Of a stretch of 64,000 bases of DNA, positions 59,540 through 63,365 are shown piece by piece. Source of the stretch: Duganella sp. CF402 (lineage in GTDB: Bacteria; Pseudomonadota; Gammaproteobacteria; Burkholderiales; Burkholderiaceae_D). Each line of letters begins with the position of its first letter. Position 1 is the first letter of the stretch. The position numbers and the translations under genes were made by a program. Where the stretch lies: the NCBI RefSeq assembly GCF_900109645.1, contig NZ_FOBG01000004.1, positions 310,001 through 374,000 on the forward strand, read 5' to 3'. The notes under the pieces were generated by a model. It was not told where the DNA came from and did not search any database. It saw nothing but the letters and a program-made list of their open reading frames with translations.

Positions 59540-60613
59540 ATGCCACAATTTGCTCCGCTCAAGAACGACACCTTCCTGCGCGCGTTGTTGCGCCAGCCGA
59601 CCGACTACACCCCTGTGTGGCTGATGCGCCAGGCTGGAAGGTATCTGCCTGAATACCGCGCCACCCGCGCCAAGGCCGGCTCGTTCATGGGCCTTGCTAC
59701 CAATCCGGACTACGCCACCGAAGTCACGATCCAGCCGCTGGACCGCTTCCCGCTGGACGCCGCCATTCTGTTCTCCGACATCTTGACGGTGCCGGACGCG
59801 ATGGGCCTGGGCCTGCACTTTGTCGAAGGTGAGGGCCCGAAATTCGAGCGTCCGCTGAAAACCGAGGCCGATGTGCTGGCCCTGCGTGCGCCGGAAGCTG
59901 GCTCGCTCGATTACGTGTTCAACGCCGTCACCCAGATCCGCACCGAGCTGAATGGCCGCGTGCCGCTGATCGGCTTCTCCGGCAGCCCGTGGACCCTGGC
60001 TTGCTACATGGTGGAAGGCGAAGGCTCGCGCGAGTTCCACACCATCAAGAAGATGCTGTACAACCGCCCGGACCTGATGCACCGCATCCTGGAGATCAAC
60101 GCCAAATCGGTGGCCGACTACCTGAACGCCCAGATCGACGCCGGCGCGCAAGCCGTGATGATTTTCGATTCGTGGGGCGGCGCGCTGGCCGACGGCGCTT
60201 ACCAGCAGTTCTCGCTCAAATACATGCAGCAAGTGGTGTCTCTGCTGAAGCGCGAGAAAGACGGCGTGAAGATCCCTGCCATCGTGTTCACCAAGGGCGG
60301 TGGTCACTGGGTGGAAGAAATCGCCGCCATCGGCGCCGACGCGCTGGGGCTGGACTGGACTGCCAATCTGACCAAGGCGCGCGCGCTGGTGGGCGACAAG
60401 GTTGCCCTGCAAGGCAACCTCGACCCGGCCATCCTGTTCGCCAGCCCGGAACAAATCACCGCCGAAGTCCACAAGGTGCTGGATGCGTTCGGTAAAGGCA
60501 ATGGCCATGTGTTCAACCTCGGCCACGGCATCTCGCAGTTCACCCCGCCGGAGAACGTGGCGGCGATGGTGGAAGCCGTTCACAGCTACAGCAAGGCGCA
60601 GCGCGCTGCCTGA
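59540..60613 (+). CDS. hemE: Uroporphyrinogen decarboxylase
   Basis: A 357-residue haem-pathway enzyme converting uroporphyrinogen III to coproporphyrinogen III. Signatures are [19 protein letters not shown] near the N-terminus (substrate-binding arginines), [17 protein letters not shown] with the catalytic aspartate, and [17 protein letters not shown] 59540 is preferred over a TTG three codons earlier. It is followed by a terminator and then by the DnaA-box-rich gap. Confidence 0.97.
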
Positions 60614-60631
60614 TCTGATCCAGCGTTAATG

Positions 60632-60663
60632 GGGCACGCTGCGGTACAGGGCGTGCCCTTTTT
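60632..60663 (+). terminator. Rho-independent terminator of hemE
   Basis: GGGCACGC and GCGTGCCC form a perfect 8-bp stem with an 11-nt loop, followed by a T run. It ends hemE transcription before the AT-rich region. Confidence 0.88.
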
Positions 60664-60760
60664 CATTGGTGCGAACGGACTAGTCATAGCCAGTTATGCA
60701 CAAAAATTTTTGCTGTAGAAATAATAGGCAGCTGATTTTGGCTAGCCCCGGAGAGTATTG

Positions 60761-60773
60761 TAAGTAATTGATT
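60761..60773 (-). promoter_or_regulatory. IHF-type binding site
   Basis: TAAGTAATTGATT matches the reversed IHF consensus YAANNNNTTGATW at every defined position. It lies between the first and second perfect DnaA boxes, a position where IHF bending is used in known origins. Predicted from the motif alone. Confidence 0.5.
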
Positions 60774-60858
60774 ATTAACGATTAATTTCATGGTTCATAG
60801 TGCAACATTTAGCAAGGCGTAAACCTTAAGGGTAAGCTTTATGTAGTTTATTTCTTCA

Positions 60859-60893
60859 TTTTCCACAAAGTTATCCACAAAAACTGTGGATAA
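60859..60893 (+). repeat. Three-DnaA-box module, copy 1
   Basis: Three boxes in 35 bp: TTTTCCACA, then TTATCCACA after 3 bp, then the reverse box TGTGGATAA after 5 bp. The last two form a perfect inverted repeat around AAAAC. The same arrangement recurs at 61284-61318. Confidence 0.85.
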
Positions 60894-61283
60894 AAAATAA
60901 AATGACTTAGTAAACCGTGACTTAGCCATAATATTGCTGTTTTGCCTGAGCTTTATGTTGCGTTGCACGATTTTTAGGCAAAAATAGCAGGCTTGCCAAG
61001 CTAGTTATCAAAGCACAAAGCTTGGTCTGCGCATAAGTATAAAATTCGGTGTTCTTGTGCTGCGCAATATGGTGGATAAGGCCCTAAAAAGAGCTTGATT
61101 TCGTCAAAAAAAGCATCCTAAATACTTCACTTATGCACAGCTGGAGGCGAGCGAAGGTGTTTTGGGCTCTCCTATGAAGCATTTTCCAAGTTGCTGATTT
61201 TAAAGAGAAAAAATTTTGATTTTTTGCCCGGTTTACGATGATATCCACAAGCATGTCGGTGCTTTCCGGGCATTAAGTTTCCA

Positions 61284-61318
61284 TTGTCCACAAAGTTATC
61301 CACAGAAACTGTGGATAC
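61284..61318 (+). repeat. Three-DnaA-box module, copy 2, just upstream of priA
   Basis: TTGTCCACA, TTATCCACA and reverse TGTGGATAC with the same 3-bp and 5-bp spacers as copy 1. The two 35-bp stretches differ at three positions and lie 425 bp apart in direct orientation. This copy ends 31 bp before the priA start, so DnaA bound here could also affect priA expression. Confidence 0.85.
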
Positions 61319-61349
61319 ATACAGCATCGGGATTTTCGCAAGGTGCAGC

Positions 61350-63365
61350 ATGAATAATCCACGCCCTTGCTACCTGCAAATAGCGATCGATACGCCGCTC
61401 AACGCAGTCTTTGACTATCGTTGGACGTGCGAACCGGACCAGCGGCCACAAATCGGCCAGCTGGCGCTGGTGTCTTTTGCGCGGCGCGAGGTGGTCGGTT
61501 TGATCGTCGGCGTTGCCGACACCACCGAGGTGCCGGCGGATAAGCTGAAAGATGCGCTGGCGGTGCGCAGCCAGCTGTCGCCGCTGTCGGCCAAGTGGCT
61601 GGCGCTGGCCGGCTTTGCCGCCGATTACTACCAGCGCCCGCTGGGCGAAGTGGCGCTGCCCGGCCTGCCCAAGAACCTGCGCGTGCTGACCACGGTGGCG
61701 CTGGACCGCGCCATCAAGAAGCTGGCCAAGCTGGAAGTGCCGCATGATCCGGCGCCGGTCAATATGCCGGTGCTGAACGCCTCGCAGCAGGAGGCGGCGG
61801 ATGCGATCGGCGGCGCCCAGGGCTTCAAGCCCTCGCTGTTGTACGGCGTGACCGGCAGCGGCAAGACCGAGGTCTACCTGCAAGCCTGCGCCCAGGTGCT
61901 GGCGCGCGAGCCGGACGGCCAGATCCTGATCCTGGTGCCCGAGATTAATCTGACGCCGCAGCTGGAAGGCAATATCCGCGCGCGCTTCCCCGGCGTGATG
62001 CTGGCCACCTTGCACAGCAGCCTGTCCGAAGGCGAGCGCATGCTGCACTGGCTGGCGGCGCACGAAGGCAAGGCGCGCATCGTGCTGGGCACGCGGCTGG
62101 CGATCTTGTCGTCGTTGCCGCACCTGAAGCTGATCGTCATCGACGAGGAGCACGATCCTTCGTACAAGCAGCAGGAAGGCTTGCGCTACTCGGCGCGCGA
62201 CCTGGCCGTGTGGCGTGCGTGGCAGTTGCAGATTCCGATTGTGCTGGGATCAGCCACGCCGTCGCTGGAAAGCTGGCACCACGCGCAATCGGGGCGCTAC
62301 CGCAAGCTGGAACTGCGCGAGCGCGCGGTGAAGAACGCCGTGCTGCCGACCGTGAAGCTGATCGACATGGAGCGCGACAAGCCTTCCGACGGCCTGACCG
62401 CGCAGCTGATCGCGGCCATCAAGCAGCGCATGGAACGCGGCGAGCAGTCGCTGTTGTTCCTCAACCGTCGCGGTTATGCGCCGGTGATTTGCTGCGAGTC
62501 GTGCGGCTGGATCAGCGAGTGCACGCGCTGCACTTCGTTCATGGTGCTGCATCGCCCCGAGCACCGGCTGCGCTGCCACCATTGCAGCCTTGAGATGCGC
62601 ATCCCGCGCCATTGCCCGACCTGCGGCAACGTCGACCTGCAACCGCTGGGACGCGGCACGCAGCGCGTGGAGGAAGGCTTGCAGGCCATGTTCCCGGAAG
62701 CGCGCGTGTTGCGCATTGACGCCGACTCCACCCGCAGGAAGGGCAGCGCGCAGGAGGCGTTCGACACCGTGCACCGGGGCGAGGTGGATATCCTGATCGG
62801 CACGCAGATGGTCGCCAAGGGGCATGACTTCAAGCGTCTGACGCTGGTTGGCATTCTGAATCCTGATACGGCGCTGTTCTCGCAGGACTATCGCGCCAGC
62901 GAGCGCCTGTTCGCGCAGCTGATGCAGGTGGCCGGCCGCGCCGGACGGGCGGGCATTCCGAGCGAGGTGCTGATCCAGACGCGCTATCCGCAGCATCCGC
63001 TGTACGGCGCGGTGGTGCATCACGACTATGACCACTTTGCCTCGGCGCTGCTGGAAGAGCGCGAGCAGGCTGCCTTGCCGCCCTATTTGTTCCAGGCCCT
63101 GCTCCGCGCCGAGGCGCGCGAGCTGGCCACGGCGATTGAATTCCTCAACATGGCGCGCGATTGCGTCGAGCATCCGGGCATCACCATCAACGATCCGATC
63201 CCGATGACCATGACGCGCGTGCACAACGTGGACCGCGCGCAGTTGCTGGTGGAGTCGCCGTCACGTCCCGCGCTGCAGGCCTTCCTGAAAGAGTGGATGC
63301 ACGCGCTGCGTGACATGAAGAGCCGTGTGAAGTGGTCGCTGGAAGTCGACCCGCTCGATATCTAA
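61350..63365 (+). CDS. priA: Primosomal helicase PriA
   Basis: A 671-residue superfamily 2 helicase that restarts stalled forks by loading the replisome. The N-terminal DNA-binding part (residues 1-130) leads to Walker A GVTGSGKT (166-173) and DEEH (265-268). The zinc-binding cysteine array (CCESCGW, CTRCTSF, CHHC, CPTCG) sits between the helicase lobes, and QVAGRAGRAG is motif VI. ATG 61350 has AAGG upstream; an earlier TTG-type frame would start inside the DnaA-box module. It converges with the LysR gene, with overlapping stop codons. Confidence 0.97.
   Translation: MNNPRPCYLQIAIDTPLNAVFDYRWTCEPDQRPQIGQLALVSFARREVVGLIVGVADTTEVPADKLKDALAVRSQLSPLSAKWLALAGFAADYYQRPLGEVALPGLPKNLRVLTTVALDRAIKKLAKLEVPHDPAPVNMPVLNASQQEAADAIGGAQGFKPSLLYGVTGSGKTEVYLQACAQVLAREPDGQILILVPEINLTPQLEGNIRARFPGVMLATLHSSLSEGERMLHWLAAHEGKARIVLGTRLAILSSLPHLKLIVIDEEHDPSYKQQEGLRYSARDLAVWRAWQLQIPIVLGSATPSLESWHHAQSGRYRKLELRERAVKNAVLPTVKLIDMERDKPSDGLTAQLIAAIKQRMERGEQSLLFLNRRGYAPVICCESCGWISECTRCTSFMVLHRPEHRLRCHHCSLEMRIPRHCPTCGNVDLQPLGRGTQRVEEGLQAMFPEARVLRIDADSTRRKGSAQEAFDTVHRGEVDILIGTQMVAKGHDFKRLTLVGILNPDTALFSQDYRASERLFAQLMQVAGRAGRAGIPSEVLIQTRYPQHPLYGAVVHHDYDHFASALLEEREQAALPPYLFQALLRAEARELATAIEFLNMARDCVEHPGITINDPIPMTMTRVHNVDRAQLLVESPSRPALQAFLKEWMHALRDMKSRVKWSLEVDPLDI

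Follow-up and report, generated by a model that had tools for sequence, protein, structure and literature searches.

Two tandem modules of DnaA boxes and IHF sites with DARS-like cores between hemE and priA of Duganella sp. CF402

Introduction

The closest described counterparts of the locus reported here are the DnaA control sites of Escherichia coli; to our knowledge, DnaA resetting between rounds of replication has hardly been tested in other bacteria. At DARS1 (between bioD and uvrB) and DARS2 (between rppH and mutH), both read here from the MG1655 genome, the core consists of three DnaA boxes in the arrangement [> 3 > 5 <], i.e. a box, 3 bp, a second box in the same direction, 5 bp, and a third box in the opposite direction, 35 bp in all. 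The spacing is reported to be equal at both sites, with box I opposite to boxes II and III (PMC5742627; here and below, published statements are taken from those parts of the papers that were available to us), and a head-to-head interaction of DnaA with loss of ADP is the published DARS mechanism (PMC8682772). DARS2 also needs the Fis sites FBS2-3, and our scan finds a Fis match at -125 (offsets are counted from the start of the core). Its two IHF matches, at -87 (minus strand) and -71 (plus strand) and 3 bp apart, fit the IBS1-2 sites of PMC4245941, where activity was moderate after a 10-bp shift of IBS1-2 towards FBS2-3 and only partial after one of 5 bp; shifts away from FBS2-3 likewise gave only partial activity. 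Further boxes of DARS2 lie at -185 on the minus strand and at -41 on the plus strand. Around DARS1, no IHF site is matched within 250 bp even when one mismatch is allowed.

The third site, datA (between glyVXY and queG), has an exact minus-strand IHF match at -97 from an exact plus-strand box and a second exact plus-strand box at -162; these and the last box, which forms a terminal pair [> 3 <], presumably correspond to the published boxes 3, 2 and 4. It has no [> 3 > 5 <] triplet. As to conservation, the sequences and spacings of the DARS2 core, IBS and FBS are kept in beta- or gammaproteobacteria close to E. coli (PMC5742627), DARS-like sequences are kept in many proteobacteria (PMC10380432), Vibrio cholerae has them at uvrB and mutH (PMC6090056), and species with a DARS2 core positioned similarly to that of E. 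coli have been discussed (PMC4245941).

Organization of the hemE-priA intergenic region

The window, by which we mean the whole 64-kb stretch of DNA that was analysed, corresponds to C9:310001-374000 of a 6.24-Mb genome in 14 contigs (G000, referred to as the own genome). The gap between hemE and priA is 736 bp long (Table 1) and has a GC content well below that of the window (0.617); all ten of the lowest-GC 300-bp segments of the window (step 50) overlap it. It contains 11 DnaA boxes, five of them exact (TTATNCACA) and the other six differing at one position. The gap in 1000 dinucleotide-shuffled versions had on average 0.04 exact boxes (at most 2) and 0.94 boxes when one mismatch was allowed (at most 5), and no 736-bp segment elsewhere in the window (step 100) has more than two boxes. 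Genome-wide there are 64 exact boxes, including the five in the gap, against 35 for a reversed-pattern control, so that single boxes outside the gap are only about twofold over background. The exact IHF consensus (WATCAANNNNTTR) occurs once in the window, and this occurrence is inside the gap. A preliminary description of this DNA had reported an AT-rich gap of this size with five perfect boxes, at least five one-mismatch boxes and a consensus IHF site, and had placed dnaA outside the window; all of this is borne out, dnaA being located on contig C10.

The boxes and IHF sites follow one plan in two tandem copies (modules A and B), each composed of a plus-strand distal box, a minus-strand IHF site and, about 97 bp after it, a triplet of boxes. 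A 45-nt direct repeat (60848-60892 and 61273-61317) is 87% identical between its copies. Searched for non-coding RNA, the gap matched no Rfam family at an E-value of 1 or less. An ordinary promoter or terminator was considered as an account of the gap and rejected (three promoter-like matches against a shuffle mean of 1.5, and one terminator-like match against 1.1); a priA promoter may still lie here.

Table 1. Features of the hemE-priA region and related loci. Coordinates are window positions except in the last two rows, which name contigs, genomes or loci elsewhere.
Feature	Coordinates	Strand	Basis
hemE, uroporphyrinogen decarboxylase, left neighbour	59540..60613	+	TIGR01464 436 bits; ORF
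AT-rich intergenic region, two tandem DnaA/IHF modules	60614..61349	.	GC 0.404; 11 boxes with up to one mismatch
Module A distal DnaA box TTATGCACA, 165 bp before triplet A	60694..60702	+	box scan
Module A IHF consensus site, 98 bp before triplet A	60761..60773	-	exact match
DARS-core-like triplet A [> 3 > 5 <]: TTTTCCACA, TTATCCACA, TTATCCACA(-)	60859..60893	+	E. coli DARS1/DARS2 core arrangement
One-mismatch DnaA box TTATGCGCA	61028..61036	-	box scan
One-mismatch DnaA box TTATCCACC	61071..61079	-	box scan
Module B distal DnaA box TTATGCACA, 153 bp before triplet B	61131..61139	+	box scan
Module B IHF-like site, one mismatch, 97 bp before triplet B	61187..61199	-	IHF scan
One-mismatch DnaA box ATATCCACA	61241..61249	+	box scan
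DARS-core-like triplet B [> 3 > 5 <], end 31 bp before priA start codon	61284..61318	+	triplet scan
priA, primosomal replication-restart helicase, right neighbour	61350..63365	+	PRK05580.1-4 958.7 bits; TIGR00595 564.9 bits
Candidate family oriC	G000 C9:216191-220282 (L112, L113); G042:C1:2039668-2041983 (L217); G141:C1:3374451-3375828 (L328)		skew minimum and boxes
Non-priA triplet neighbours	ksgA L276, L277, L278; xerD L286, L287; proS L273, L289		flanking-protein scan

Comparison with DARS and datA

Both triplets of the gap have the three-box core of fixed orientation and spacing found at DARS1 and DARS2. The IHF sites lie on the same side of the core as those of DARS2, but 10-11 bp further from it than the -87 match. 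The distal boxes of the gap, at -165 and -153, are both on the plus strand, where DARS2 has a minus-strand box at -185, the module is without a conserved Fis site (the own Fis matches are at -215 and +154 of triplet A, with none for triplet B), and the elements are arranged in tandem, flanked by hemE and priA and near a putative origin, rather than at uvrB or mutH. The pair [> 3 >] alone reflects a general preference: E. coli DnaA binds pairs with 2-3 bp between the boxes, and does so at nrdA, polA and purH too (PMC11317965, the available text of which does not mention priA).

The box-IHF-box spacing is that of datA: -165/-98/0 in module A and -153/-97/0 in module B (the latter IHF site with one mismatch) against -162/-97/0. 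A datA-like role, in which IHF would form a loop joining the DnaA bound at the distal box to that bound at the core, trigger ATP hydrolysis and turn DnaA off soon after passage of the fork, gains from this layout and from the closeness of the gap to a putative origin, as datA is close to oriC (PMC10380432). It loses by the terminal boxes: datA ends in [> 3 <], whereas the triplet that datA lacks is the conserved part here, and we regard this role as rather unlikely. As read from its sequence, the module unites the DARS core with the loop spacing of datA, and it is distinguished by its convergent third box and by the distance of its IHF site.

That DARS is conserved in beta- and gammaproteobacteria has been published before, and we have not met the composite layout beside priA in the literature searched. 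The available parts of the published accounts of DARS conservation make no mention of priA, tandem copies or a 97-bp IHF spacing, those of PMC6090056 and PMC10218098 report no Burkholderia DARS, and a search of open-licence papers for DnaA together with the priA promoter returned none.

Conservation of the module in the family

We delimited 77 hemE-priA gaps from 80 rows, leaving out L052, L056 and L071, in which hemE was not found. Fifty of the gaps contain the triplet, with 76 triplets in total at the spacing pair (3,5); over the 77 gaps, the remaining 168 spacing pairs produced a single match each in two cases and none otherwise. Rows L006-L057, L067, L073 and L077, mostly from Oxalobacteraceae, account for 53 gaps, of which 48 contain triplets (the five near relatives without one are L021, L034, L044, L045 and L046). 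Triplets are also present in both Ralstonia gaps and are absent from the other 22, mostly of Alcaligenaceae, Cupriavidus and Pandoraea. This leaves 27 of 77 gaps without a triplet at the threshold used.

The other parts of the module keep their places as well. An exact minus-strand IHF consensus is present at -96, -97 or -98 from the triplet start in 59 of the 76 triplets, with no exact site at any other offset within 250 bp, and a plus-strand box lies between -180 and -145 in 73 of the 76, against one minus-strand box in that interval. The Fis consensus does not recur at a conserved offset over the same 76 triplets (largest count 2). In a second set, 31 single-contig genomes of the family were searched and gave 30 priA loci (G172 had none); all 30 have an upstream triplet in the orientation of priA and an IHF site with up to one mismatch at -94 to -100. 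None of 30 dnaA loci has the triplet (in 11 the sequence does not extend upstream of dnaA, and in three it does so by less than 700 bp), and it is also absent from the box-cluster stretches near parS of four genomes.

Distribution across the class and within the genome

With one mismatch allowed, the triplet pattern matches 259 of 370 genomes of the class, the own included, and the reversed control matches none; the class sampled is what we take to be GTDB Gammaproteobacteria, with Burkholderiales inside it. We located dnaA in 23 of the matching genomes, and in the 13 of these that are single contigs every triplet is at least 113 kb from dnaA, so the triplet is not a dnaA-side origin motif. 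Only four genomes of the class sample belong to the same taxonomic order but to another family, and two of the four match the triplet.

At 29 triplet loci of the class other than the own (18 genera; not independent), a minus-strand IHF site with up to one mismatch lies at -99 to -95 in 16 (11 genera) and at -89 to -85 in three, against an average of 0.19 for other 5-bp intervals; between -180 and -145 there are 21 plus-strand boxes and no minus-strand box.

The neighbouring genes bear on a simpler account, in which no nucleotide switch is involved and the boxes only serve to titrate DnaA or to place the priA promoter under DnaA control. Triplet B ends close to the priA start codon, and seven of 30 loci fetched by the triplet (six genera) adjoin priA. 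A sample chosen regardless of the triplet (30 genomes, G195-G228 minus G197, G199, G210 and G223, with no match from G208) gave 29 priA loci; in nine of them a triplet precedes the first start codon of the priA frame by 95-330 bp. All nine triplets are in the orientation of priA, and the best minus-strand IHF site is at -98 or -99 (0 to 2 mismatches). Moreover, DnaA boxes are crowded near the E. coli origin, which fits titration (PMC12371093), and genes for repair and replication are among those under DnaA control in E. coli (PMC11317965). Against control of priA, however, priA was not detected within 1.5 kb at 23 of the 30 triplet loci, and the neighbours found by scanning 40 flanking proteins include ksgA (three loci, one genus), xerD (two loci, one genus) and proS (two loci, two genera); at none of the 30 did a search within 1.5 kb detect dnaA, hemE, mutH or the tested part of uvrB. 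Simple titration would not require a fixed spacing, orientation and IHF distance. We consider this account improbable, to about the same degree as the datA-like role.

In the own genome the triplet pattern with up to two mismatches has 11 matches, with none for the control: the two in the hemE-priA gap, two on C2 (1810080 and 1811318), six at C4:72916-73736 and one weak match at C2:454075. The C2 pair (C2:1810077-1811346; L005, L253) consists of triplets that flank a response-regulator-like ORF, at a distance of about 1.24 kb from each other; both have an exact IHF site at -97, and the second triplet is found only at the looser threshold. The C4 matches (L124) are six tandem repeats resembling the DARS triplet in noncoding DNA between exbB/exbD-like and xseA-like genes (named by eye), and this array does not have the -97 IHF spacing.

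Location of the chromosomal origin

The clustered boxes, the IHF site and the AT-rich DNA of the gap resemble an oriC, and the gap has the most exact boxes among the clusters of the own genome that were examined. In Caulobacter hemE flanks oriC, a point raised in the preliminary description, which took the gap to be either oriC or a secondary DnaA-binding locus. The GC skew of the own contig and of relatives places the minimum elsewhere. On C9 the cumulative skew between 160 and 240 kb reaches its minimum at about 220 kb, about 151 kb from the gap (371 kb), with box clusters at 216208-216376 and 219186-219508; two parS-like sites with one mismatch each (204626 and 204676) lie beside mnmG-, rsmG-, parA- and parB-like genes (named by eye). 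Sampled skew is negative in six of seven stretches to the left of 220 kb and positive in all three from 220 to 300 kb; it is mixed within the window and weakly negative to its right, so that the own contig by itself is not decisive on the origin.

Two relatives have single-contig genomes. In G042 there is a sharp skew minimum at 2.040 Mb, and priA, at 1.996 Mb, has negative skew on both sides; the minimum sits on the noncoding locus given in Table 1, which has eight exact and nine one-mismatch boxes and lies 14-16 kb from parS (2025841). The skew of G141 reaches its minimum at 3.375 Mb, with priA (3.337 Mb) inside the negative arm; six exact boxes at the minimum are 2.5-5.6 kb from two parS sites, and since this skew leaves out 3390001-3424307 (34 kb beyond 3.390 Mb) the minimum could lie slightly further on. 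In G181, a member of the own genus, the stretch from 4.69 to 5.09 Mb shows a small dip near parS, after which the cumulative skew falls to 5.01 Mb. This skew is noisy, with repeated sign changes in values sampled elsewhere, and its minimum is not at the cluster near parS; nor does the 400-kb stretch reach its lowest value at the hemE-priA gap (4.949 Mb).

A main origin at the gap was rejected on account of the minima in the own C9, G042 and G141, with the lowest point of G181 also elsewhere; in addition, the box clusters at the minima of the first three are without the triplet. We hold such an origin to be very improbable. No more can be said for a secondary or backup origin, which would draw on the same dense boxes, AT-rich DNA and IHF site and on the adjoining gene for PriA, a restart protein: there is no switch from negative to positive skew at the hemE-priA gap, and the AT-rich DNA would be no more than a candidate unwinding element. 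Of the two suggestions in the preliminary description, oriC is not supported, given the skew minima elsewhere, and a secondary DnaA-binding locus is supported by boxes and IHF sites conserved in a fixed geometry in the family. It had also named observations that would together count against it, among them a skew minimum far away at dnaA and loss of the boxes in relatives; the minimum is indeed distant, but not at dnaA, and the boxes are kept.

On C10 dnaA is followed by dnaN- and gyrB-like genes (named by eye), and the region upstream of it (C10:99467-100640; L123) has a single exact DnaA box, for which reason the own dnaA is probably not at the origin and an origin there was set aside. The real oriC of the family is likely to be the DnaA-box cluster at the skew minimum, no more than 16 kb from parS (Table 1) and about 35-150 kb from the hemE-priA gap in the own contig, G042 and G141. 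In the own genome and G042 this candidate has a liv-type ABC transport operon and a putA-like gene (named by eye) in its neighbourhood, and in the own genome its two box clusters, which share ACTTATCCACAG and CACTATTTTTATAT, flank a 906-aa ORF. The origin of Cupriavidus metallidurans has similarly been placed about 90 kb from dnaA, where three perfect DnaA boxes immediately precede the skew transition (PMC2864759).

Three further observations concern the replication map of the own genome. Of its 64 exact DnaA boxes, 21 fall in 109 kb (C9:162672-271781) around the putative origin, in keeping with the pattern described for titration in E. coli (PMC12371093). Another gap, beside a glmU-like gene (named by eye; C9:232240-232577, L113), has seven boxes when one mismatch is allowed, and three pairs 12 bp apart account for six of these. 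On C2, between 1.07 and 1.26 Mb, the sampled GC skew turns from positive to negative, as expected of a terminus.

A proposed role in DnaA control

Judged from its sequence and conservation, the gap would comprise two tandem IHF-dependent DnaA-binding elements that are not the main origin and that act in a DARS-like reactivation of DnaA, a reading we place just on the probable side. Among the nucleotide-control roles such reactivation seems the most likely, with the datA-like role next, because the convergent pair of boxes 5 bp apart, absent from datA, is conserved. In each copy DnaA would bind the distal box and the three-box core, and IHF would bend the DNA between them, bringing the two complexes together. 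DnaA on the two convergent boxes would then meet head to head and release ADP, and the ADP-free DnaA could then take up ATP again and initiate the following round of replication. We infer the protein binding, the looping, and the release of ADP and its timing at the gap. Hda makes ADP-DnaA in E. coli, and as an Hda-like protein is encoded here (a 139-aa piece of 102 bits, below the whole-protein cutoff of 194.8), ADP-DnaA should form in this host too.

Several features count against this reading, namely the lack of a conserved Fis site, an IHF offset and distal box that fit datA better than DARS2, and the position near the putative origin, by analogy with that of datA. The general DnaA preference for the [> 3 >] pair, the 27 of 77 gaps in which no triplet is found at the threshold used, and the non-independence of the 29 class loci also weigh against it. 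A more speculative view, which we think doubtful, is that a widespread composite module of distal box, IHF site at -97 and DARS triplet was ancestral to both datA and DARS2, and that in much of the class one site could turn DnaA off or on depending on IHF binding. By this descent datA would have kept the 97-bp IHF loop and lost the triplet, and DARS2 would have kept the triplet, shifted IHF by one turn and gained Fis; the E. coli side consists of one locus each, and so common descent is offered as a hypothesis.

If DARS-like reactivation is the role of the hemE-priA elements, the triplet, often with an IHF site near -97, would be a signature of candidate DnaA control sites in the 259 matching genomes of the 370 sampled, and DARS and datA switches would become testable in culturable Oxalobacteraceae. 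The locus is also suggestive of a connection between the control of DnaA and priA, the gene of the restart helicase, and its analysis points to a likely real origin of the family that is beside neither dnaA nor hemE.
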